64,000 bases of DNA, from assembly GCF_024362385.1 (NCBI RefSeq), contig NZ_CP101466.1, positions 3,410,001 through 3,474,000 of the forward strand, read 5' to 3'. Positions 35,545-45,897 of this stretch are shown here, piece after piece (positions within the stretch are counted from its first letter, which is position 1; each line of letters begins with the position of its first letter). Source of the DNA: Arthrobacter sp. DNA4. GTDB lineage: Bacteria > Actinomycetota > Actinomycetes > Actinomycetales > Micrococcaceae. Made by a program: the position numbers and the translations under genes. Below the pieces are notes generated by a model. That model was given only the letters and a program-made list of their open reading frames with translations, was not told the origin of the DNA and ran no database searches.

Positions 35545-37305
35545 CTACTGCCCCGACAACACAGCCTCCACGGCGGCGGAGACTGCTTCCTTGATCCGGG
35601 CGTGGAGTTCGCGCAGCGCCCCGCGGTCCGCGCGGACCTCCACGATGCTGCGTCCCTGCACAGGCCGGTCAAGCGCCTCGGCGAGTCCCGCCGTCGTACT
35701 GACCAGGGAATGCCCGACGCCGTACGCCGCCGCGAGTGCCGCGATGTCCACCGAGTGCGGGGTGCCAAAGAGTCGCTCGACGGCGTCTCCGTAGCGGCCG
35801 CCTTCCTCCACTCCCCCGTGCTCGAGCAGGCTGAAGATGGCGCCGCCGGCGTCGTTCAGGACCACGATCCGCAGGTCCGGCTCTTCTTCCCCCGCGCCGA
35901 GGAGGAGGCCGCCCGCGTCGTGCAGGAAGGTCACGTCGCCCAGCAGGACGGTGGTCTGCTGCCGGCCGCCCAAAGCGATGCCGGTGGCGGTGGAAATGGT
36001 GCCGTCGATGCCGGCCAGGCCCCGGTTGGCGTACACGGTGGCGGCTGGATCCGCGGCGGGAAGTCCGGCGAGGTCCACGTCGCGGATGCCGTTGGAGGAA
36101 CCGAGCAGCAGCTGGCCGCGCGAATGCTTCCAGACCAGCGACGCCACCGAGGGGCCGGTGGCAGCGGGGTCGGCGGACACCACCTGGTCCAGTGCGTGCT
36201 GCGCGGCCGATCCGGCAAGCAGCCACGTGTCCAGCCAGCTGGAGCTGCCGCGGCCGGCGAATCCGGCGAGGTCCGCGAGGTTTTCCAGCGGCAGTTCGGT
36301 GCGGCGCCCGGGCTCGTACCAGGCGACCGGGACAGGCTGGTACAGGGCAGATTCGACGTCGGCACTGGCCAGCAGCGCGGCCACCGGACGGGACAGCGTG
36401 GGCCGGCCGAACAACACCACGCGTTCGATCGGTTGCGCGGAACCGGCCCGGAAGTGCTCCAGCAGCAGCCGGTACGGACCCACGGCGTTTGGACCGAAGC
36501 GGGCGTTGGAGGATGGCTCAGCGAGCAGCGGCAGGTTGTGGGCACGGGCGAATGCTTCGGCCACGGGGCCGGCGTCGTGCCCTGCCAGCACCACCGTGCG
36601 CCGCTCCGGCAGCGTGTCCGGGGCCGTCGGCAGGTTCATGACCAGCGGCTCGGATCCCACCCGGTAGCGCTGGCGCTCCACGGCGTCGGGCAGCCGGTCC
36701 CCGGGGGCCGGAACCAGCGGGTCCCTGAACGCGAGGTTGAGCTGGACCGGGCCCGGCGGAAGGTCCGGGAATGCGCCGGTTGCTGCGGAGAGTCCGGTCT
36801 GGATGGCCCGCTCGGGGTTGCTGCCGGCGGGAACATCGGCGGCGAACCGGACGTGCTCGCCAAAGAGGTCCGGCTGCACCGTGGTCTGGTTGGCCCCGGT
36901 TCCGCGCAGCTCATCGGGCCGGTCTGCCGAAAGGACGATCAGCGGGACAGCGGCATGGTTGGCTTCCATCACCGCAGGCATCAGGTTTCCGACGGCGGTT
37001 CCGGACGTGGTGAGGACGGCTGCGGGCGAGCCGCTGGACAGGGCAAGGCCCAGCGCGGTGAATCCTGCGGAACGCTCATCGATGCGGACCAGCATGTCCA
37101 CCCGGCCCGCGGCGGAGGCTTCGGCGAGGGCGTATGCCATGGGGGCCGACCGCGAACCCGGCGATACCACCACGTGCCGCACGCCGCCGTCGAGCAGGAC
37201 CTCGACGGCGATCCTCGCCGCAGCGAGCGCACTCAGCTCAGCGTCGGGGGCGTCAGGGCTGCTCAGCCCGGGGGTGTCCGGGGCAGGTTCGTTCAACGAA
37301 GTCAC
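35545..37305 (-). CDS. menD: SEPHCHC synthase (MenD)
   Basis: About 586 residues of the thiamine-diphosphate enzyme family. RIDERSAGFTALGLAL holds the conserved Glu that activates the cofactor. VLTTSGTAVGNLMPAVMEA and SADRPDELRGTGANQT are MenD signatures. ANRGLAGIDGTISTATG and LLGDVTFLHDAGGLL form the ThDP/Mg site. It joins isochorismate and 2-oxoglutarate in the second menaquinone step. I use GTG 37305; the adjacent TTG 37308 is possible. The 32-bp repeat array begins only about 20 bases upstream of the start and so lies in or next to its promoter. Confidence 0.92.
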   Translation of the reverse strand: MTSLNEPAPDTPGLSSPDAPDAELSALAAARIAVEVLLDGGVRHVVVSPGSRSAPMAYALAEASAAGRVDMLVRIDERSAGFTALGLALSSGSPAAVLTTSGTAVGNLMPAVMEANHAAVPLIVLSADRPDELRGTGANQTTVQPDLFGEHVRFAADVPAGSNPERAIQTGLSAATGAFPDLPPGPVQLNLAFRDPLVPAPGDRLPDAVERQRYRVGSEPLVMNLPTAPDTLPERRTVVLAGHDAGPVAEAFARAHNLPLLAEPSSNARFGPNAVGPYRLLLEHFRAGSAQPIERVVLFGRPTLSRPVAALLASADVESALYQPVPVAWYEPGRRTELPLENLADLAGFAGRGSSSWLDTWLLAGSAAQHALDQVVSADPAATGPSVASLVWKHSRGQLLLGSSNGIRDVDLAGLPAADPAATVYANRGLAGIDGTISTATGIALGGRQQTTVLLGDVTFLHDAGGLLLGAGEEEPDLRIVVLNDAGGAIFSLLEHGGVEEGGRYGDAVERLFGTPHSVDIAALAAAYGVGHSLVSTTAGLAEALDRPVQGRSIVEVRADRGALRELHARIKEAVSAAVEAVLSGQ

Positions 37306-37326
37306 CAACCCAGTTTGCCACCCTCC

Positions 37327-37600
37327 AACGCCCCATCACTTCCTGCCCCGAATCGCCATACGCCCCATCACCTCCTGCACCGAATCGTCAAACGCCCCAT
37401 CACCTCCTGCCCCGGCGCCCCCGGGAAGTGATGGGGCGTTGCCGAAAAGGGGGCTAAAGGTGATGGGGCGTTCCCGGGAAGGGGGCTAAAGGTGATGGGG
37501 CGTTCCCGGGAAGGGGGCTAAAGGTGATGGGGCGTTCCCGGGAAGGGGGCTAAAGGTGATGGGGCGTTCCCGGGAAGGGGGCGGGAAGTGATGGGGCGTC
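37327..37600. repeat. 32-bp-phased repeat array with internal inversion (9 copies)
   Basis: The core GTGATGGGGCGTT occurs as its complement at 37327, 37359 and 37391, and directly at 37428, 37460, 37492, 37524, 37556 and 37588 (last and second copies one mismatch). Successive copies in each half are exactly 32 bases apart. Four complete 32-base units (37451-37578) are identical and contain the palindrome TTCCCGGGAA. The array fills the divergent region between menD and the lacI-type gene. It encodes no protein. Confidence 0.9.
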
Positions 37601-37614
37601 GGAACGGAGCGGAA

Positions 37615-37636
37615 GCTCACACGAGTTAGGTAAACT
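37615..37636 (+). promoter_or_regulatory. LacI-type operator and -10 of the regulator gene (autoregulation)
   Basis: The 16 bases at 37615-37630 match the operator CCTAACACGTGTTAGG at 13 of 16 positions, with the right half (GTTAGG) perfect. They abut TAAACT (37631-37636), a plausible -10. This suggests the LacI-family protein controls its own gene. Confidence 0.55.
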
Positions 37637-37675
37637 TCATCCAAGCAAGAGATCCGAGCATGCGAAGGACCGCCC

Positions 37676-38764
37676 ATGAAGCGCAAGGCCACCGCCCTCG
37701 ACGTCGCCAAGCTGGCAGGCGTTTCGCGCAGTGCCGTGTCGCTGGTGCTGAACGGCCGCGGCGACGGAAACGTGGCGCTCGAAAGCCAGCAACGGATCCG
37801 GGAGGCGGCGGCAGCGCTCAACTACTCCCCCAACAAGATCGCCCTGAGCCTGCGCAACCAGCAATCGCGGGTCATCGGCATCGTGTCCGACCAGGTGGTC
37901 ACGAGCCCGTTCGACGGCAACATCATTGCCGGCGCTGATGCCGTGGCCCGGGAACACGGCTTCGTGACCGTGGTGATGGACACCGAGCTGGACGAGTCCC
38001 GCGATGAGAGCGCCGTGGAAACCCTGCTGGACCGCCAGGTGGACGGCCTGATGTACGTGACCGTGGGCCTGCGGCCGCTGCACGTGCCCGCAAACATGGC
38101 GCGTGTACCGTCGATCCTGGCCAACTGCTTCGATGACCGTCCGGAGGCAGGGCTTCCGGCCGTGATTCCTGACGAAGTGCGCGGTGGCCGGGAAGCCGCA
38201 GAGCACGTGATGTCCCTGGGCCACCGGGACATCGCATTCCTCGCGGGCGACTCCCTGACCCCCGCGGCGCCCCGCCGGATCGAGGGCTACCGTGCGGCCT
38301 TCAGCGGCGCGGGGATGCCCGTCAACGAGGACCGCGTCATCCAGGTGGGCTGGGACATCGACGCCGGTTTCCACGGTGCCATGAAACTCCTCGAAGGCGT
38401 GGAACCGGCCGCCCGGCCCACTGCCATCCTGTGCGCCAACGACCGTCTGTCCATCGGTGTAGTGCTGGCCTGCTACCGCCTGGGCCTGAGCGTCCCGCAG
38501 GATGTGTCCGTCATGGGGTACGACGACGAATTCCGCATCGCGAAGGCCATGGTCCCCGCGCTGAGCACCATGGCCCTGCCGCTCCGGGAGATGGGGGCGG
38601 CGGCCATGGCGTCACTGCTCGCCGAGGTGGGGTCTGCACCGGAGGGAACGTCCGACGACGACGGCCCGGCTGCCGCCGCCGTCTCCGGCACCGCGAGGGA
38701 GACGATGGTTCCCTGCCGGCTGGTGGTCAGGGAATCCACCGGCCCGGTCCCGGCCGGACGCTGA
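37676..38764 (+). CDS. LacI-family transcriptional regulator of the fructoside locus
   Basis: 362 residues. N-terminal LacI helix-turn-helix and hinge (ALDVAKLAGVSRSAVSLVLNGRGD, residues about 7-30, then SLRNQQSRVIGIV). A periplasmic-binding-like sensor domain follows, with AILCANDRLSIGVVLACYRLGLSVPQDVSVMGYDD. It should bind the palindromic operators at 43600-43619 and 43634-43649, in front of the sugar ABC/GH32 operon, and release on binding a sugar. A similar site lies at its own promoter. The last 40 residues are a low-complexity Ala/Asp stretch plus a short conserved end. The gene is convergent with the GH32 gene. Confidence 0.88.
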   Translation: MKRKATALDVAKLAGVSRSAVSLVLNGRGDGNVALESQQRIREAAAALNYSPNKIALSLRNQQSRVIGIVSDQVVTSPFDGNIIAGADAVAREHGFVTVVMDTELDESRDESAVETLLDRQVDGLMYVTVGLRPLHVPANMARVPSILANCFDDRPEAGLPAVIPDEVRGGREAAEHVMSLGHRDIAFLAGDSLTPAAPRRIEGYRAAFSGAGMPVNEDRVIQVGWDIDAGFHGAMKLLEGVEPAARPTAILCANDRLSIGVVLACYRLGLSVPQDVSVMGYDDEFRIAKAMVPALSTMALPLREMGAAAMASLLAEVGSAPEGTSDDDGPAAAAVSGTARETMVPCRLVVRESTGPVPAGR

Positions 38765-38806
38765 CCACGCCGCCGGCCGGGGCCCGCCAGGCCGGTTTGG
38801 AGCGGG

Positions 38807-40201
38807 CTATGCGGGCCTGGCCAGGCTCCAGACGTCCGCCGTTGCCCCTGCGGGAAGGCTTAGTTTCCATTTCTCCCCCGCAGCTGGGTAAGCACGCAGC
38901 GTGGTTGCCACCGACCCGGAACGGTACACCTCCACCAGGGAGGCATCCACGAACACCCGCAGCTCCTCCCCTGCGTCGACGCTGCCGCTGAAGACCACCT
39001 GCCGGCTTCCGTTCCCCACCAGGAGCAGCTCCACAGCACCGCCCATTCCTGCGGTGACCACGGCCTCGGCGAAGGCAGGCAACGGCACCGTCCCGGATGC
39101 CTGGCCGGTGAGCAACTCTCCACGGTAGGCATCGACTTCCGGGGCAGGGCTGACCGCAAGGGAACCGCCGACTATCGACAGCTCGCGCGGGAAGGTCAGG
39201 ACTCCGGCCCACCCGGCGGCGTCGATCTCTGCCTGGCTGCGGCCGCGGCGCCCGTCCCGCCCCGGGCCTTCGTTGGCCCAGCCCCACAGCAGGGCCCGGT
39301 CCGCCAGGGACACCACCTGCGGGGCGTAGAAGTCGCGGCCGAGATCGGACTTTCCGCCGGTCCGCGGCGTGAAGACGGGCAGCCCTGTGGCGGGGTCTTC
39401 GGCCAGCGATCCGATCAGGTGGCCCACGCCGTTGGCGTGTTCGTGTGAGTCGCCGGCGAGCCAGAGCGAGAACATCATCAGCCAGCTGCCCCCGGCAGGG
39501 GCATTGTTGTCGGGCACCTGCACCAGCTGCGGGCATTCCCAGATCTCCGCTGGCGTGAAGGTGGCGGCAACCGGGTTCTGCGAGGTCAGCCAGATGCCCT
39601 GGTACTTCCAGTCGGTCAGATCGTCCACGGTGTAGAGCAGCAGGGCGGCGTGCCCGTTGGCCAGTCCGGCGCCCTGCATGGCGTACCGCTTGCCGTTGAA
39701 GCGGAAAATGAACGGGTCCCGCACTGCGGTCACCAGTCCGTCGGCGGGCATGGTGGCGGAAACGTGGCCTGCCTGCTCCCAGTGGACAAGGTCCTCCGAG
39801 CCGCGGGCGATGACCACCTGTGAGTGGCCCCCGTCGCCGCGGACGCCGGAGTAGGCAGCGGTGGGAACACCGTCGTCGTCCGTCACCACCCCTGTCCAGC
39901 AGCCGTACTCGTCGGGGCCGCCATCCTGCGGGCGAAGCGCCACGGGGTGCTCCTCCCAGCGGACCAGGTCCACCGAGCTCACGTGTCCCCAGGCGATCCT
40001 GTGGTGCCGGGCCGAGTCCGGGTTGTACTGGAAGAACACGTGGTACCGGCCGTTGATGAAGCTGATGCCGTTGGGGTCATTGATCCAGCCCTGCGCCGGG
40101 CGCGGGTGGAAGCGGGGGAAGGCGGGGTCGGGGTGGGCGGCGGCAACGTCGTCGAAGGTGACGGTGCCGGGATGGACGGCGGCGAGGTCCGGGGAGGTCA
40201 T
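38807..40201 (-). CDS. Glycoside hydrolase family 32 (beta-fructosidase/sucrose hydrolase type)
   Basis: 464 residues. The five-bladed catalytic domain shows the nucleophile motif GWINDPNG (Asp42), the transition-state motif AVRDPF (Asp162), the acid/base in EIWECPQL (Glu222), and FYAPQVVSL. A C-terminal beta-sandwich ends the protein. No signal peptide is seen, so it should act in the cytoplasm on sucrose or short fructans brought in by the ABC transporter. It is the last gene of the leftward LacI-controlled operon, 33 bases after the second permease. Exact substrate (sucrose, levanbiose, inulin fragments) cannot be read from sequence. Confidence 0.9.
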   Translation of the reverse strand: MTSPDLAAVHPGTVTFDDVAAAHPDPAFPRFHPRPAQGWINDPNGISFINGRYHVFFQYNPDSARHHRIAWGHVSSVDLVRWEEHPVALRPQDGGPDEYGCWTGVVTDDDGVPTAAYSGVRGDGGHSQVVIARGSEDLVHWEQAGHVSATMPADGLVTAVRDPFIFRFNGKRYAMQGAGLANGHAALLLYTVDDLTDWKYQGIWLTSQNPVAATFTPAEIWECPQLVQVPDNNAPAGGSWLMMFSLWLAGDSHEHANGVGHLIGSLAEDPATGLPVFTPRTGGKSDLGRDFYAPQVVSLADRALLWGWANEGPGRDGRRGRSQAEIDAAGWAGVLTFPRELSIVGGSLAVSPAPEVDAYRGELLTGQASGTVPLPAFAEAVVTAGMGGAVELLLVGNGSRQVVFSGSVDAGEELRVFVDASLVEVYRSGSVATTLRAYPAAGEKWKLSLPAGATADVWSLARPA

Positions 40202-40234
40202 GGAACGGCCTTTCGGGCTTGAGGGAGGAAGGGT

Positions 40235-41137
40235 TTACTTGCCGGTTCCGGCTGTGAGGCCGTCCTGCAGGGCGCGTTGGCCGAAAATGAAGACCACCAG
40301 CGCGGGGATCATGGACAGGACTACGCCCGCCAGGACCACCGAAATGCTGCCGGTGCCCAGGTTGCCCTGCAGTGAGACGAGGCCCAGCGGGAGGGTGAAG
40401 TTCTGTTCGGAAATGGTGAGGATCAGCGGGCGGAAGAACTCGTTCCAGTGGAAGTTGAACGCGAGGATTCCCACAATCGCCATGCCGGGCATCGCCAGGG
40501 GCGCGTATACCGAACGGAATGTCCGCCACGGGCTGGCGCCGTCGATCGAGGCGGCTTCGGCGAGTTCGGCCGGCAGCCCCATGAAGTACTGGCGCATCAG
40601 GAACGTGCCGAACGCCGTCGGGATGGCCGGCAGGATCAGCGCGAGCAGGGTGTCGGACAGGCCCATGCCGCGGATCAGCATGAAGACGGGGACGATCGTC
40701 ACCTGTACGGGCACCATCATGGTGGCCAGCACGATCGAGAACAGCGCCCCGCGACCACGGAATTTCAGGTGCGCGAACGCGTAGCCGGTCAGGGCGGCGG
40801 AGACCATCTGGCCCACCGCGATCACGCCGGTGACCAGGGCGCTGTTGAGGACCAGCAGGAAAATATTCAGCTGCTTGAATACTTCGCCGTAGGAGGTGAA
40901 GTCCGGGTTCCAGGGAATGAACGACGGCGGCAGCTTGAACGATTCCGACGGCGAACGCAGCGACGTGGACAGGGTCCAGAGCACAGGTCCGAGCGTGAGG
41001 GCGGCTGCGAGCAGCAGCAGGAGGGTCCGGACGGCGAAGCTCCCGTTGAACTTCTTCCGGTTGGGCGTGGTGATGGGGAGGCCTTGGGAGAGCCGGGGCG
41101 AATGTCCGGCCAGGCCGTGGTCAGTTGTGGTTGTCAT
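40235..41137 (-). CDS. Carbohydrate ABC transporter permease (MalG-like)
   Basis: 300 residues with six helices. The CUT1-family coupling loop is intact (ELAEAASIDGASPWRTFRSVYAPLAMPG). N-terminal SPSESFKLPPSFIPWNPDFT is typical for MalG-type permeases. It forms the membrane pore with the permease encoded upstream. The operon has no ATPase, so it probably shares a chromosomal MsiK-like ATPase, as many actinobacterial sugar importers do (inference from family knowledge). An 8-base gap separates it from the upstream permease stop. Confidence 0.88.
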   Translation of the reverse strand: MTTTTDHGLAGHSPRLSQGLPITTPNRKKFNGSFAVRTLLLLLAAALTLGPVLWTLSTSLRSPSESFKLPPSFIPWNPDFTSYGEVFKQLNIFLLVLNSALVTGVIAVGQMVSAALTGYAFAHLKFRGRGALFSIVLATMMVPVQVTIVPVFMLIRGMGLSDTLLALILPAIPTAFGTFLMRQYFMGLPAELAEAASIDGASPWRTFRSVYAPLAMPGMAIVGILAFNFHWNEFFRPLILTISEQNFTLPLGLVSLQGNLGTGSISVVLAGVVLSMIPALVVFIFGQRALQDGLTAGTGK

Positions 41138-41145
41138 GGCTGGCC

Positions 41146-42171
41146 TTACTGGTAGAAGACGAATCGTTTGCTGAGCCGGAACTGTGCGGCCGTGATGGCC
41201 ATGATGATCAGCGTGAGCAGCACGCCGATGGCTGACGCCTGTCCGAATTCGAGCCGCTGGAACGCCGATTCGAAGATGACCATGACGGCGGTGCGGGTGG
41301 AGTCGCCGGGGCCGCCGCGGGTCAGGACGTAGGGCTGGTCGAAGACCTGCAGGGCGCTGATGATGGCCATGACCGAGGCGACGAGCGTGGTGGGGCTCAG
41401 CAGCGGCAACGTCACGTGGAGGTGTTTGCGCCAGCCGGTGGCGCCGTCAATCGCGGCGGTGGCGCCGTCAATCGCGGCTGCCTCGTATGTCTCGACGGGA
41501 ATGGAGGCCAGGCCCCCGATGAACAGGAGGAAGGAGAAGCCGAAGTTCTGCCAGACGTACACCAGGATCACGACGGCGGCCGATCCGCCCGGTGTGGTCA
41601 GCCACGGCACGGCGGGGATGCCCACCAGGGACAGGAACCAGTTGACCACGCCGAACTGTTCGTTAAAGAGGTACCGCATGAAGATGGACACCGAGGCGGC
41701 GGACAGGATCAGCGGGAAGAAGAACGCGGACCGGAAGAATACCCGCAGCCACGCCGGCATCTTCTCCTGCACCATGACCGCCAGTGCCAGGGCGAGTCCC
41801 AGCTGGAGTGCCACCGCCACCACCACGAACACGATGGTGTTCAGGAAGGACACCCGCACGGTGGGGTCCTGGACCACTTCCGAGAAGTTGTCGAAGCCCA
41901 CGAAGGTTGGCGCCGAGATGATGTCCCAGCGGAAGAAGGCCAGGACAACCGAGGCCACGATGGGAACCAGGGTGAACAGGCCCATGCCCAGGATGGTGGG
42001 CGCCAGGAAGATCCAGGCCAGCCAGCGCTGGTTGTGCCTGGCGCCGGTGGTGCGGCCTCCGGCGCCCGAGGCACCGCTGGTGCCGCTGGCGGCGTGGGTG
42101 CGGGCCGTCGTCGTACTTGCCCGGCCGGCTGCCCGCCTGGGCCGTTCGCGGGGCGGGGTGGTGGTGCTCAT
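41146..42171 (-). CDS. Carbohydrate ABC transporter permease (MalF-like) with duplicated coupling-loop segment
   Basis: 341 residues. A Ser/Ala/Thr-rich tail of about 50 residues is followed by six helices. The cytoplasmic EAA loop reads VETYEAAAIDGATAAIDGAT then GWRKHLHVTLPLLSP. A 21-base perfect tandem duplication (41437-41457 and 41458-41478) inserts seven extra residues between EAA-IDGA and GW. This loop docks onto the ATPase, so the insertion may weaken coupling. The start overlaps the binding-protein stop. Otherwise it is a standard CUT1 permease. Confidence 0.87.
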   Translation of the reverse strand: MSTTTPPRERPRRAAGRASTTTARTHAASGTSGASGAGGRTTGARHNQRWLAWIFLAPTILGMGLFTLVPIVASVVLAFFRWDIISAPTFVGFDNFSEVVQDPTVRVSFLNTIVFVVVAVALQLGLALALAVMVQEKMPAWLRVFFRSAFFFPLILSAASVSIFMRYLFNEQFGVVNWFLSLVGIPAVPWLTTPGGSAAVVILVYVWQNFGFSFLLFIGGLASIPVETYEAAAIDGATAAIDGATGWRKHLHVTLPLLSPTTLVASVMAIISALQVFDQPYVLTRGGPGDSTRTAVMVIFESAFQRLEFGQASAIGVLLTLIIMAITAAQFRLSKRFVFYQ

Positions 42172-43589
42172 GACTGCCTCCTCAGGGCAAGTTCAAGGTC
42201 GCGCTGCATGGATGCGAGGGCCTGCTTGAGCTGCTGCTCGTCCCCGCTGACGGCAAGGGATACGTTCTTCATCAGGGCCGTTTCGACGGCGGCCTGCTGG
42301 GGTGGTGCCGGGATGGGGCCCGTGGTGGGGAACCGGTCCAGGGTGTCGTAGAAGACCTTCCAGTGGGCGGGACCCTTGCCGGCATACAGCTGTTCGTTGA
42401 CCATGGAGCGGCGCGCCGGCGTGGTGATCGGGCTAGGGAAGATCAGCGCCATTGCCTCACGGCTGGAGCTGAACTTGATCCATTCCCAGGCGGCATCCTT
42501 GTCCTTGGCGGTCTTCATGATCGCGTAGCCGGCGGTGCCGAACTGGTGGCGCTGGGTCTTCCAGCGCGGGAAGAACTGGACGTCGAAGTCGTTGGCGCCC
42601 ATGCCGGCCTCATGCAGGCCCTGCACCCAGTAGCCGCCGGCGGGCGTGGTTCCGATCCGGTTGGAGGCGAACAGGCCCACCAGGGAACTGCCCCCGCCTT
42701 CTTCCGGCCGGACGCCCAGTCCGTCCTTGACCAGGCCGCGGAGGTAGTCGAAGGACTCGAACACCCGGTCGTCGTTCGCGTTCGGTTCCAGCCACTGGTA
42801 GCCGCCGGAGCGGAGGCTGCGGGAGGGGTCGTTGGCGTAGAAGCCGTCCCAGAGCCAGTCGCCTCCTGCGGACCTGGTCTCTTTGAGGAAGCTGGTGTCG
42901 TTGGCATAGAGCCACGGCACCACGCCGCCAAAGAGCCTGTTGGTCCAGTAGTAGGGCGTGAAGTCGGAGGTCCGGGCCTTGCGCATCGCGGCGAGGCTGT
43001 TGCGGAAATCGATGTGGGTCCAGTCGTCCGCCGGCCGGTCCAAGCCTGCCTGCGCAAACGCGGCCGTGTTGTAGTACATGTTGGCCGCATTCCAGTCCAT
43101 GGGGAGCTGGTAGAGGCTGCCCTTGTACATGAAGGCTTCCACCAGGCTGGGGTGCACGTCATCGAAGAATTCGCGCATGTCCGCGGCATCGCGGCGGATG
43201 TACTCGTCCAGCGGGTGGGCCAGCTTTTCCGCGAACAGTTGGGCGCCCTCGGTGGCCACGTACACCACGTCCGGCGGGGTTCCCGCGGCCACCATGGTGA
43301 GGATTTTGGTGAAGAAGTCTTTCCAGTCCACGGCCTGGATGGCTTGGACCTTGACCCGGATTTCCGGGTGGAGGCGGGTGAATGTGTCGATGGCCCGCTG
43401 GCGGGCGGCGGCGTCCGCGGCGGTGCCCATGATGGCGATGCTGAGGCTGTTGTCTCCGCGGCCCGGAATGTCCGTTCCGGAGAGCCGCGGCCACGACGCC
43501 ACGGTTGCTCCGATGATTCCCGTGCCGAGGGCACCCAGGGCGGTACGGCGGGTGATGTCCCGCAGGTGCCCGTCTATGGCTCCGGTCAT
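42168..43589 (-). CDS. Sugar ABC transporter substrate-binding protein
   Basis: 473 residues of the extracellular solute-binding family 1. The N-terminus carries DITRRTALGALGTGIIGA, a twin-arginine-like signal without a lipobox. The mature domain shows the repeat pattern VKVQAIQAVDWKDFFTKIL, AGTPPDVVYVATEGAQLF, PMDWNAANMYYNTAAF and TAGYAIMKTAKDKDAAWEWI. It should capture a fructoside and deliver it to the two permeases. A strong AAGGAAAAGGAC ribosome site precedes ATG 43589. The promoter with two LacI-type operators is directly upstream. Confidence 0.87.
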   Translation of the reverse strand: MTGAIDGHLRDITRRTALGALGTGIIGATVASWPRLSGTDIPGRGDNSLSIAIMGTAADAAARQRAIDTFTRLHPEIRVKVQAIQAVDWKDFFTKILTMVAAGTPPDVVYVATEGAQLFAEKLAHPLDEYIRRDAADMREFFDDVHPSLVEAFMYKGSLYQLPMDWNAANMYYNTAAFAQAGLDRPADDWTHIDFRNSLAAMRKARTSDFTPYYWTNRLFGGVVPWLYANDTSFLKETRSAGGDWLWDGFYANDPSRSLRSGGYQWLEPNANDDRVFESFDYLRGLVKDGLGVRPEEGGGSSLVGLFASNRIGTTPAGGYWVQGLHEAGMGANDFDVQFFPRWKTQRHQFGTAGYAIMKTAKDKDAAWEWIKFSSSREAMALIFPSPITTPARRSMVNEQLYAGKGPAHWKVFYDTLDRFPTTGPIPAPPQQAAVETALMKNVSLAVSGDEQQLKQALASMQRDLELALRRQS

Positions 43590-43599
43590 GTCCTTTTCC

Positions 43600-43649
43600 T
43601 TCCTAACACGTGTTAGGAACTGTAGATGACCGACCTAACACGTGTCAAG
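43600..43649 (-). promoter_or_regulatory. Promoter and twin LacI-type operators of the sugar operon
   Basis: Minus strand: TTGACA (43643-43648), 18-base spacer, TACAGT (43619-43624). Operator O1 is a perfect 20-bp palindrome, 43600-43619, with centre CACGTG, just downstream of the -10. Operator O2 (43634-43649, CCTAACACGTGTCAAG) overlaps the -35. Their centres are 32 bases apart. Confidence 0.82.
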
Positions 43650-43702
43650 CATCACATGGGGGTGCCTCCGCGGCAGCGGGGTAGGGCGGCGTTTAAGCCC
43701 GA

Positions 43703-43815
43703 AACGCCCGCCCACCATTCCGCCGGAGGGGGCAGAAGGTGAGCGGGCGTTGCCGGAAAAGCCGCCAAAGGTGATGGCGCGTCCCCGGAAAAGCCACCAA
43801 AGGTGATGGCGCGTC
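43703..43815. repeat. 32-bp-phased repeat array, second copy (4 diverged units)
   Basis: One inverted core (AACGCCCGCCCAC, 43703) and direct cores at 43739, 43771 (GTGATGGCGCGTC) and 43803, the direct cores again exactly 32 bases apart. The first inverted/direct pair forms a 14-base stem with one mismatch. It lies between the phoX stop and the sugar-operon promoter. Confidence 0.8.
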
Positions 43816-43830
43816 CACGGTTGGAAGGGG

Positions 43831-45897
43831 TTAGCCGCGGAACACCTGGACAACTGAGGGACGGGGCGCGCGCACCTGGCCGGGTGCCGGCGTCGTGCCT
43901 GCCGGGACGTAGTCCGGGAAGAACGAGTGCGGCGCCTCGAAGGTGCCTTCCTCGCCCGGGTGCTGCACGGAGACGAACACGGTGCGCTCGTCATCGTGGA
44001 TGACCGGGCCGCAGGTTTCGGCGTCGCGGGGAACGGAAAGGAACTGCTCCACCTTGCCGCGCTCGGCGCCGTCCAGGGTGACCTTGAAGAGGCCGTCGTT
44101 GTAGCCGATGCCGGAGGGGGCGCCGTCGGTGGAGATCCAGAGGTTGCCCACGGAGTCGAAGGCCACGTTGTCCGGGCAGGAGATGGGCGAGACCTTGTCC
44201 GCCGGGTAGCCGGAGAAGTAGGTGACGTCGCCCTGCGCCGGATCGCCGCAAACCATCAGGAGGGTCCAGTTGAACTTCATGGAGGTCTGGTCGCCGGTTT
44301 CGGTGATTTCCACGATGTGGCCGTCGCGGTTCTGCGTGCGCGGGTTGACCTCCGTGGCGCCTTCCTTGGTGCCGGTGCCGCGGTCGGAGTTGTTGGTGCA
44401 GACCACGTAGACCTTGCCGGTGTGCAGGCTGGGCTGGACGTCCTCGCAGCGGTCCATCTTGGTGGGGCCCACCTTGTCCGCGGCCAGGCGGGTGTACACC
44501 AGGACCTCTTCGACGGACATGCCGGGGACTGCCGACTTTCCGCCGACCACTAGGGGCAGCCATTCGCCGGTGCCGTCGAACGCGCCGTCGGAGGGAAGCG
44601 CCCCGGTCCCGGTGATCTCCGCGCCGGGCGAGTTGCCGGTGAACTTGGCAACGTAGAGGTCGCCCTCGGACAGCAGGTTCATGTTGTGCCTGCGGTCGCC
44701 CTCCCGGTACTTATCCGCCGAGACGAACTTGTAAAGGTAGTCGAACTTCTCGTCGTCGCCCATGTAGGCCACCACGTGGCCGGACTCGGCCACGATCACG
44801 TTGGCGCCCTCATGCTTGAAGCGGCCCATGGCGGAGCGCTTCTTGGGGGTGGAGGCAGGGTCGAACGGGTCAACTTCGACGATCCAGCCGAAGCGGTTGG
44901 CCTCGTTCTCGTACCCGGCATTGCGGGTGTCGAAGCGGGGGTCATCGAGTTCCCACTTGCGTGCGGTGGGCTTGGCGGTGAGCCCGTAGCGCTTGTCGCC
45001 GGCTGACGTTCCGCCTGCGACGAAGTAGCCGTTGAAGTTTTCCTCGCCGGAGAGGATGGTCCCCCAGGGGGTGGTGCCGCCGGAGCAGTTGCCGAACGTG
45101 CCCTTGATGGCGCGGCCGGACGGGTCGGCCACGGTCTTCACCAGCGCCGAGCCGGCAACCGGACCGGTCAGTTCGTAGGTGGTGTCCGAGAGGTAGCGGC
45201 GATTCAGCGGCGCGCCCTTCACGTAGCTCCACGGCTTGGTGGTGTTCTTGCGCTCCAACTCCACCACGGCCAGGCCGTGCGCGGCGCGGCCGATGGCACG
45301 GGTTTCCACGGGGTCGTAGCCAGCCGGCACCATGATGTTTTCGTTGGTGTACTCGTGGTTGGTGAACAGCACAGCGCGGCGGCCCTTGCTGCCCGGGATT
45401 TCCACGATGTCCGTGTAGTCGTTGTTGTAGCCGAACTGGCGGGCCTGGGCTGCGGCGGTCTGGTTGTTCAGGTCGAACTCGGGGGAATCGCTGAACAGCG
45501 GGTCGCCCCAGCGGATGATCGGCTGCCAGGTGAAGCCCTCCGGCACGGTAAAGGCGTCGACGGCCTTGTCGACCGGCTTGATGGCGGTGAACTGCAGCTT
45601 GGAGTTGCCGAAGCCTTCCTTGGCGGCCTTGGACAGGCCCGCGGCGGAGGCAGGTTCGGCGGAGCTCACGGCTGAACCGAGGGCGACGGCGAGCGCACCG
45701 GCGGCGCCAAGGCCCAGGGCGGCGCGGCGGGACATGGTGGCGGAGGCGATGTCGCGGAAGTAGCTGTTGGAGCTGGTGTTGCAGACGTCACCGGCGCAGG
45801 CGTTGTCGCACTTGAGTGCACACGTGACGGGGCTGCGCTTGCCCTTGGTATGGCCGAGCATGGGCAGCAGGGTGAACTTGCGGGCGGTTTCAGACAT
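43831..45897 (-). CDS. phoX: PhoX-family alkaline phosphatase
   Basis: 688 residues from ATG 45897. A long N-terminal region (about 55 residues, including a Cys-rich stretch) precedes a Tat signal (SRRAALGLGAAGALAVALGS) as in other PhoX enzymes. The mature part is the DUF839/PhoX beta-propeller. It has VLFTNHEYTNENIMVP, NCSGGTTPWGTILSGEEN, RFGWIVEVDPFDP, DRCEDVQPSLHTGKVYVVCTN and SCPDNVAFD, which supply the Ca/Fe ligands. It releases phosphate from organic esters outside the cell. A candidate PHO box lies about 75 bases upstream. Confidence 0.9.
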   Translation of the reverse strand: MSETARKFTLLPMLGHTKGKRSPVTCALKCDNACAGDVCNTSSNSYFRDIASATMSRRAALGLGAAGALAVALGSAVSSAEPASAAGLSKAAKEGFGNSKLQFTAIKPVDKAVDAFTVPEGFTWQPIIRWGDPLFSDSPEFDLNNQTAAAQARQFGYNNDYTDIVEIPGSKGRRAVLFTNHEYTNENIMVPAGYDPVETRAIGRAAHGLAVVELERKNTTKPWSYVKGAPLNRRYLSDTTYELTGPVAGSALVKTVADPSGRAIKGTFGNCSGGTTPWGTILSGEENFNGYFVAGGTSAGDKRYGLTAKPTARKWELDDPRFDTRNAGYENEANRFGWIVEVDPFDPASTPKKRSAMGRFKHEGANVIVAESGHVVAYMGDDEKFDYLYKFVSADKYREGDRRHNMNLLSEGDLYVAKFTGNSPGAEITGTGALPSDGAFDGTGEWLPLVVGGKSAVPGMSVEEVLVYTRLAADKVGPTKMDRCEDVQPSLHTGKVYVVCTNNSDRGTGTKEGATEVNPRTQNRDGHIVEITETGDQTSMKFNWTLLMVCGDPAQGDVTYFSGYPADKVSPISCPDNVAFDSVGNLWISTDGAPSGIGYNDGLFKVTLDGAERGKVEQFLSVPRDAETCGPVIHDDERTVFVSVQHPGEEGTFEAPHSFFPDYVPAGTTPAPGQVRAPRPSVVQVFRG

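Follow-up and report, generated by a model that had tools for sequence, protein, structure and literature searches.

Phased 32-bp core arrays at gene 3' ends in Arthrobacter and relatives: candidate protein-binding arrays built on terminator-like dyads

The repeat array described here, from a 64,000-nucleotide stretch of the Arthrobacter sp. DNA4 genome (the window, to which all positions refer), is, on sequence comparison, a member of a family of gene-3'-end elements of the genus Arthrobacter and its relatives. The phasing of the units, their placement at 3' ends, the terminator geometry at many dyads and the genome-wide dialects of the core word can all be read from the sequences. On balance, we lean towards the view that these are phased binding arrays, nucleated on terminators, for a putative co-evolving DNA-binding protein that would reinforce the terminators as a roadblock. 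The array in the window has the following parts:

37327 to 37403, reverse strand: left arm, with inverted cores at 37327-37339, 37359-37371 and 37391-37403 and a 32-bp period
37404 to 37427, no strand: 24-bp dyad gap, within the set of family values (3, 13, 23-24 and 34-35)
37428 to 37600, forward strand: right arm, with direct cores starting at 37428, 37460, 37492, 37524, 37556 and 37588, a 32-bp period and recently amplified units
37391 to 37440, no strand: innermost inverted pair (rank-1 hairpin), with no adjacent T-tract and not a canonical terminator

The array occupies 37327-37600 and consists of three inverted and six direct 13-bp cores, nine in total, placed 32 bp apart within each half; the number, orientation and exact period reported in a first-pass annotation of this DNA are thus confirmed by the core coordinates. 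Seven of the nine cores are exact, and those at 37359 and 37588 differ in the last base (A and C, respectively). The halves are 37 bp apart from start to start, equivalent to a 24-bp gap between 12-mer cores. Four identical 32-mers, which had also been noted before, were recovered by eye in the register CTAAAG+core+CCCGGGAAGGGGG, and we too take the right-arm units to be recently amplified. With up to two mismatches allowed, the core occurs 16 times in the window, compared to a mean of 2.27 and a largest value of 7 in shuffled sequences, a count far beyond chance, and TRF reports tandem repeats in the window with scores of 148 and 295. The predicted fold of the array is very stable (z -7.5), good pairing between the arms being restricted to the cores and the innermost hairpin. 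No T-tract was found at this inner hairpin and no terminator-like site within 37200-37720, and the array itself does not present a hairpin followed by a U-tract. Rfam gave a single match for positions 37000-44000 of the window, with an E-value of 0.82 and 25.8 bits against a gathering cut-off of 90, i.e. no known RNA family.

The surroundings of the array are best described together with a second array of the same 32-bp family in the window, about 6 kb from the first (43703-43815), some 15 bp from the phoX stop and with a dyad gap of 23:

35545 to 37308, reverse strand: menD-like TPP enzyme (Pfam TPP_enzyme_N/C), with its 5' end toward the first array
37676 to 38764, forward strand: LacI-family regulator, with its 5' end toward the first array
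37379 to 43768, no strand: insertion relative to eight distinct sites in relatives, about 6.4 kb with approximate boundaries, breaking the ancestral array between menD and phoX
43703 to 43715, reverse strand: the one inverted core belonging to the second array, reading GTGGGCGGGCGTT on the strand that carries it
43739 to 43815, forward strand: three direct cores of the second array with a 32-bp period, with the GCGG word at 43739 and the TGGC word at 43771 and 43803
43831 to 45897, reverse strand: PhoX alkaline phosphatase, whose 3' end was the array's ancestral partner

The gene at 35545-37308 is presumably menD, a name that follows the earlier annotation, Pfam giving TPP_enzyme_N/C. In relatives, a single array is present between menD and phoX at eight distinct sites (nine loci, two of which are identical), and the alignment of the window to these sites extends to 37378-37471 and resumes from 43695-43832. 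The intervening cargo encodes lacI, GH32, two ABC permeases (one slightly below the Pfam cut-off) and a solute-binding protein, with array pieces at both ends. The relatives therefore indicate that the divergent setting of the window array was made by a later insertion, and the nine-unit array would be an expanded copy that stayed behind at the menD side when a sugar-utilisation segment entered the ancestral menD/phoX array. The first-pass annotation had placed the array in a divergent promoter region; it does lie between the menD and lacI starts, but a promoter or divergent role is not supported, as the family is found near stops and the setting reflects the insertion. Because its inner hairpin has no T-tract, the window array may be a bound array only, or a relic. 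The presence of the approximately 6.4-kb segment (37379-43768) inside an ancestral array raises the possibility that arrays act as insertion or recombination points. Directly upstream of the gene for the solute-binding protein are two operator-like palindromes, TTCCTAACACGTGTTAGGAA (43600-43619) and CCTAACACGTGTCA (about 43635-43648), which are plausible LacI-family sites.

The genome that contains the window (G000; 4.56 Mb, one contig) has 40 matches to GTGATGGGGCGTT with at most one mismatch; by coordinates, 34 of these are in arrays at eight places and 6 stand alone, the reversed-pattern control giving 3. Including the second array of the window, arrays are found at nine places in this genome, two of which (near 3.588 and 4.191 Mb) are known by coordinates only. 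The literal core was found in 4 of 39 genomes (its own included) and in 13 of 395 in a wider search, but this scarcity is misleading as a measure of the spread of the family. The pattern GTGRNNGNGCGT-N20-GTGRNNGNGCGT was identified in 35 of 325 genomes of the bacterial family, with 658 matches versus one for the reversed pattern: in 22 of the 29 genomes of the same genus, in 11 of the 23 of a second genus (g38) and in two genomes of a third (g21), with none in 29 other genera of the bacterial family. Seven of the 29 genomes of the genus have no match, one of which (G354) carries a single-dyad form, and the number of matches per genome within the genus ranges from 0 to 60. Named carriers include Pseudarthrobacter enclensis, P. 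phenanthrenivorans, Arthrobacter liuii and several Arthrobacter sp. The first-pass annotation had advised searching for the unit elsewhere in the genome and in other Micrococcaceae, and unit, core and 32-bp period do recur in both.

Many of the array sites are orthologous across species. The best sampled is the site between two convergent genes, which we take to be an aminotransferase gene and a LuxR-type gene; the aminotransferase gene beside its convergent neighbour was matched in 61 out of 61 genomes of the genus, with 30 loci retrieved. These comprise 22 arrays with the GTGRNNGNGCGT word, one array with GTGAGGACGCGT (L190), six single dyads, and one locus (L180) that was not read directly and beside which single-dyad matches were placed by coordinates. 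A chance tandem duplication is ruled out as the origin of the array, since the family recurs at orthologous sites. The single-dyad variant at this site (L168, L176, L179, L185, L189 and L191) is found in species without tandem arrays there; its cores are of the type GTGATRGAGCATC or GTGATGGAGCAAC, often with an inner TTTTGGTCCC, and there are at most eight AAGTGATRGAGCATC matches per genome.

For analysis of the architecture, the fetched loci were resolved into 225 arrays, which fall into 72 flank-similarity clusters. Four loci were excluded as unrelated from the spacer comparison, the 225-array set and later counts; before this, two of them (L093, L128) had been included in both early counts and two (L120, L144) in one. 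The units nearly always point outward from one dyad, with 117 junctions of the type -+ and only five of the type +- in the 225-array set. Same-strand pairs with identical words are found 263 times at 32 bp, eight times at 31, six times at 33 and once each at 34, 35 and 50 bp, with none below 31 bp, and a further 97 and 30 pairs at 64 and 96 bp; many loci were fetched with a fixed 32-bp pattern, and unbiased searches allowing 27-37 bp or 30-34 bp gave the same spacing. The 32-bp spacing holds throughout the family while spacers have diverged, in agreement with the earlier remark that the period is kept through diverged copies.

The gap at the dyad is also quantised. When gaps of 0-30 bp were allowed, 41 junctions were found in 15 of 206 genomes of the genus, with gaps of 3 (9 junctions), 4 (1), 13 (19), 23 (8) and 24 bp (4), and no other value. 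In the larger set, 108 of the 117 junctions lie within 1 bp of 3, 13, 23-24 or 34-35, so helical-phase spacing includes the dyad; the nine junctions off this grid have gaps of 5, 8, 8, 9, 9, 47, 52, 66 and 67. Taking one gap value per flank cluster, 29 of 30 clusters are on the grid, with a best period of 10.2 bp and a periodicity R of 0.90 compared to a maximum of 0.61 in 2000 null draws; two of 32 clusters (gaps 47 and 66) were excluded from this test, and flank clusters may not be fully independent. The single-dyad variant has a gap of 34-35 by coordinates, and one orthologous site shows gaps of both 3 and 13. The steps are one DNA turn. Such 10-bp steps fit DNA sites that have to lie on one face, whereas there is no evident reason for them in an RNA loop. 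Together with the genome-wide dialects described below, they support the earlier suggestion of a protein-binding array with all cores on one side of the DNA, 32 bases being about three helical turns.

The profile of 213 distinct TGGG-type units shows the core at positions 1-13, A or T at positions 19-22 (72, 92, 87 and 64%), GC at 26-27 and A at 31. The flank upstream of the core differs between words, being GC-R-G-R-A-G for TGGG, GC-C-A-A-A for GCGG, AC-G-T-G-G-A for GCGA and mixed for GAGA (68, 25, 42 and 14 interior units). As this flank changes with the core, the recognised word is probably about 20 bp long. Genomes differ in their core dialect (TGGG, GCGG, GAGA or GCGA), and species-specific words are found at the aminotransferase/LuxR site, i.e. 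GTGATGGGGCGT, GTGAGCGGGCGT, GTGATAGAGCGT/GTGAGAGAGCGT and GTGATGGAGCGT. In counts that cover part of each genome's arrays, the commonest word was found in 28 of 28 units read in G020, 44 of 46 in G165, 16 of 17 in G263, 29 of 31 in G253, 16 of 18 in G330, 24 of 28 in G100, 23 of 27 in G076, 29 of 35 in G000, 27 of 34 in G349, 7 of 9 in G317 and 22 of 39 in G001. The last is mixed (22 TGGG and 13 GCGG among its 39 units), and G330, which is mainly GCGG, has a TGGG dyad. On a tree of the neighbouring gene (30 rows), the word classes are clustered but have switched repeatedly, with nine changes where four is the least possible and the shuffled mean is 15.9; the GCGG class alone is unclustered (a count as low was reached in 167 of 500 shuffles), and good support is confined to few branches of this tree. 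Seven rows of the tree have class 'none', namely L168, L176, L185, L189 and L191 (single-dyad), L190 (other word) and L180 (unread).

In the aminotransferase/LuxR cluster the cores differ between word classes, but the spacers are still recognisably orthologous (mean identity 0.59 in 370 pairs, compared to 0.43 in the control), and its rank-1 spacers, i.e. those of the innermost units, stay alike from one class to another. All 771 cross-word spacer pairs have a mean identity of 0.52, and only 7% exceed the 99th percentile of the control; outside this cluster, spacer retention is mostly weak or absent, and some pairs represent the close words TAGA and GAGA.

Spacer comparison, from which three Sinomonas/g21 arrays (L074, L075 and L124) were also excluded, bears on the growth of the arms. 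Over spacer positions 14-25, adjacent units of the same arm are 77% identical (101 pairs), compared to 33% for units of the same rank in opposite arms (51 pairs) and 37% for unrelated loci. Judged by these identities, the arms grow separately and a long hairpin is not maintained. The one long hairpin of the first-pass annotation is therefore not the feature under conservation: there is pairing at the cores and at rank 1, but beyond rank 1 the same-rank spacers are no more alike than those of unrelated loci. Selection for one long hairpin is ruled out beyond rank 1, the outer spacers not being complementary.

At rank 1 the dyad has the properties of a terminator in many members. The rank-covariation test was entered by 113 arrays with a dyad gap of at most 36; among 46 arrays with differing rank-1 and rank-2 alleles, rank 1 matches across the dyad in 36, compared to 14 with the left rank-1 allele equal to the right rank-2 allele and 16 for the reverse. 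The rank-1 stem extends outward (cluster mean 0.53 versus 0.39 for the control), and no extension was seen at rank 2 (13 arrays) or rank 3 (3 arrays). In tandem gene contexts, TTT is present in the transcript-downstream arm in 29 of 47 cases, compared to 6 of 47 for the opposite arm; counted by cluster, 11 of 15 have the downstream direction, with two ties and two against. Among the convergent arrays that possess a dyad (56), TTT is found in both arms in 22, in a single arm in 19 and in neither in 15. The orientation of the rank-1 T-tract is what is predicted for an oriented intrinsic terminator, and the geometry appears in many, though not all, members; at the family level, hairpins are followed by a U-tract in the direction of the gene. 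In tandem contexts a sense-strand T bias extends in both arms to ranks 2 and 3. The convergent arrays have T equal to A at rank 1, and at outer ranks A exceeds T in outward reading, where A would be the sense-strand T of the gene entering that arm. This outer-rank bias may reflect function or inheritance from rank 1 by duplication.

Gene contexts were assigned with a home-made codon-usage gene caller, which placed 88 arrays in convergent, 78 in tandem and 13 in divergent contexts; the remaining 46 of 225 (44 'edge', 2 'inside') are unclassed. By cluster, 21 are convergent, 25 tandem and 5 divergent, compared to 8, 39 and 8 for the baseline of window gaps. Facing stops (n=254) lie at a median of 11 bp, 59% of them within 15 bp, and facing starts (n=104) at a median of 139 bp, 1% of them within 15 bp; in the 78 tandem arrays the stop is nearer in 63 and the start in 14. 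In the part of PMC1590033 that was available, stem-loops are described as enriched between convergent genes in bacteria generally, and array placement alone is therefore weak evidence.

The arrays are also unevenly placed along the chromosome. In four closed genomes (G000, G001, G100 and G349), no array among those listed lies beyond 55, 67, 74 and 77% of the distance toward the opposite pole, i.e. none in the ter-proximal 23-45% (P 0.005, 0.028, 0.028 and 0.003). Tests of the mean distance from dnaA are weaker (P 0.04, 0.30, 0.08 and 0.03), and the four P values must not be multiplied, since array sites are common to the genomes. The analysis used closed genomes whose contig starts with a DnaA-like frame containing the motif GGRDHTT. 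It excluded G165, for which the set of arrays is incomplete and the farthest array among those listed is at about 0.87 of the distance, as well as G020 and G263, which have no DnaA-like frame at the contig start.

We propose that each array is built on a dyad of two outward 12-bp cores, which in many members is laid out like an intrinsic terminator, and that further 32-bp units join the arms at intervals of about three helical turns, all on one face of the DNA. A trans-acting sequence-specific DNA-binding protein would recognise positions of about -7 to +12, comprising the core and the flank upstream of it, and may make a second contact at the A/T tract of +19 to +22. Assembled in order along one face, this protein would cover the array and reinforce the terminator as a roadblock, keeping transcription from leaving the gene, and dialects would shift when its specificity drifts. 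A protein that reads the sites is the best explanation for dispersed positions that lie on a helical grid and have a changing word in common. The protein-binding array suggested by the first-pass annotation hence gains from the 10-bp steps of the dyad gap and the genome-wide dialects, the protein itself being putative. More tentatively, and with considerable doubt, the system could represent roadblock-assisted termination, in which a rapidly co-evolving protein, bound head-to-tail on 32-bp sites flanking an intrinsic terminator, seals gene ends, and in which dozens of sites follow as the dialect word of a species diverges. Dozens of dispersed sites, many of them orthologous, appear to have changed their word together, a natural experiment in the co-evolution of a protein and its sites. 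The rules (32-bp unit, dyad gap of 3/13/23/34, dialect word) are precise enough to be used as bait for a pull-down of the protein, and allow testing whether bacteria reinforce terminators with ordered protein arrays. The family would also account for conspicuous repeats in many genomes of the genus.

Several other explanations share part of this evidence. A purely RNA-level element, in which an intrinsic terminator or mRNA 3'-end hairpin has its arms expanded by slippage and the outer cores serve as alternative pairing partners with no DNA-binding protein involved, would agree with the covariation and stem extension at rank 1, the oriented T-tracts, the 3'-end placement and the high stability of the fold predicted for the window array (z -7.5). 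It leaves unexplained, however, the 10-bp steps of the dyad gap, the 32-bp spacing with diverged spacers and the core words shared within a genome, and outer-rank spacers are not complementary (13 arrays at rank 2, three at rank 3); we regard it as rather unlikely. We hold it to be improbable that the arrays are selfish repeats of the REP/BIME or MITE kind, spread and homogenised by a putative mobilising enzyme and tolerated at gene ends. The arrays are indeed dispersed and palindromic, with 0 to 60 matches per genome within the genus, and show recent tandem amplification, but Y1 transposase (PF01797) was found in none of 30 genomes, whereas the control was positive in 5 of 14, blastn gave no plasmid or phage match for the window array, and the sole viral-contig match of the 32-bp pattern is a repeat of 16-bp period. 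Many sites are, moreover, orthologous across species, and one of them has kept its spacers although its cores changed. The selfish palindromic repeat of the first-pass annotation, in its RAYT form, is not supported, given the lack of Y1 transposase in the 30 genomes and of plasmid or phage blastn matches to the window array; the latter also led us to reject a plasmid or phage origin.

A site for supercoiling or chromosome architecture at convergent 3' ends, bound by gyrase or a nucleoid protein, has its model in BIME-2, which interacts with gyrase in E. coli. The convergent 3' ends, the helical phasing and the lack of arrays, among those listed, in the ter-proximal 23-45% (by distance from dnaA) of four closed genomes would suit such a role. 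Gyrase, however, is a conserved enzyme and an unlikely driver of core dialects; the ter bias could simply mirror the positions of conserved genes, sites are common to the genomes, and the mean-distance tests are weaker (P 0.03-0.30). We hold this explanation to be quite improbable. A signal resembling DNA-uptake sequences, with species dialects and inverted pairs at terminators, appears very improbable. Dialects and terminator-associated inverted pairs are indeed described for Neisseriaceae DUS in the available part of PMC3630211, but that same text gives hundreds to thousands of DUS per genome and has no phased tandem arrays in what could be consulted. The cores are not abundant outside arrays (in G000, 6 of 40 alone, reversed control 3), and DUS/USS were rejected for lack of a clear genome-wide excess of single cores in G000, the one genome considered for this.

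The favoured reading, of phased protein-binding arrays on terminators, can be set beside several known systems. In termination by RNA polymerase I, TTF-I bound at Sal boxes provides a parallel. The closest logical similarity is that a roadblock protein works together with a T-rich sequence and an RNA hairpin, as described in the available part of PMC12366685, although that system is eukaryotic and serves rDNA, whereas the arrays are bacterial, lie at protein-coding genes and have a protein that is only postulated. Bidirectional intrinsic terminators between convergent genes have in common the geometry, covariation and T-tracts at the innermost dyad of many members; the arrays differ in their added phased, non-pairing outer units, shared core word and dialects. 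Most features of REP/BIME elements used here for comparison are general background. REP/BIME of E. coli and Pseudomonas are likewise short palindromic repeats, dispersed, clustered and at gene 3' ends (PMC12306157 and PMC1590033, available parts). The arrays are dispersed palindromic extragenic repeats as well, but differ in their 32-bp head-to-tail phasing, single dyad, 10-bp gap steps, dialects and lack of Y1/RAYT (none in 30 genomes). The Haemophilus uptake signal sequence has a unit of about 30 bp with a core and an A/T tract about one turn away, as in the array unit; function, copy number and arrangement are different. Neisseriaceae DUS, finally, have a partly conserved 10-12-bp word that differs between species as dialects, and terminator-associated inverted pairs (PMC3630211, available part), and dialects between species are likewise found in the arrays; the latter differ from DUS in copy number (tens, as against hundreds to thousands), in having few copies outside arrays, and in tandem phasing.

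A search of the open literature, outside which most subscription papers fall, found no description of this array family, and texts containing a 12-base core word concern other subjects, judged by their titles. RepRanger provides counts for Arthrobacter livingstonensis, with no mention of such an array family in the available part of the paper (PMC12306157).

Some matches proved to be of another nature. The viral-contig match of GTGAKVGVGCGT is a repeat with a 16-bp period and looks the same as the M. gordonae match, in a mycobacterial contig; the two loci (L364 and L093, respectively) apparently contain the same stretch of 16-bp-period GTGATGGGGCGT repeats. A Streptomyces match also has a 16-bp period, and two Nocardioides matches are 32-bp repeats of other sequence. 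Three Sinomonas loci (L114, L124 and L135) contain tandem GTGGTGGGGCGTTTGG with a 32-bp period, in one orientation and little diverged; these are weakly linked to the family and possibly a distant offshoot.
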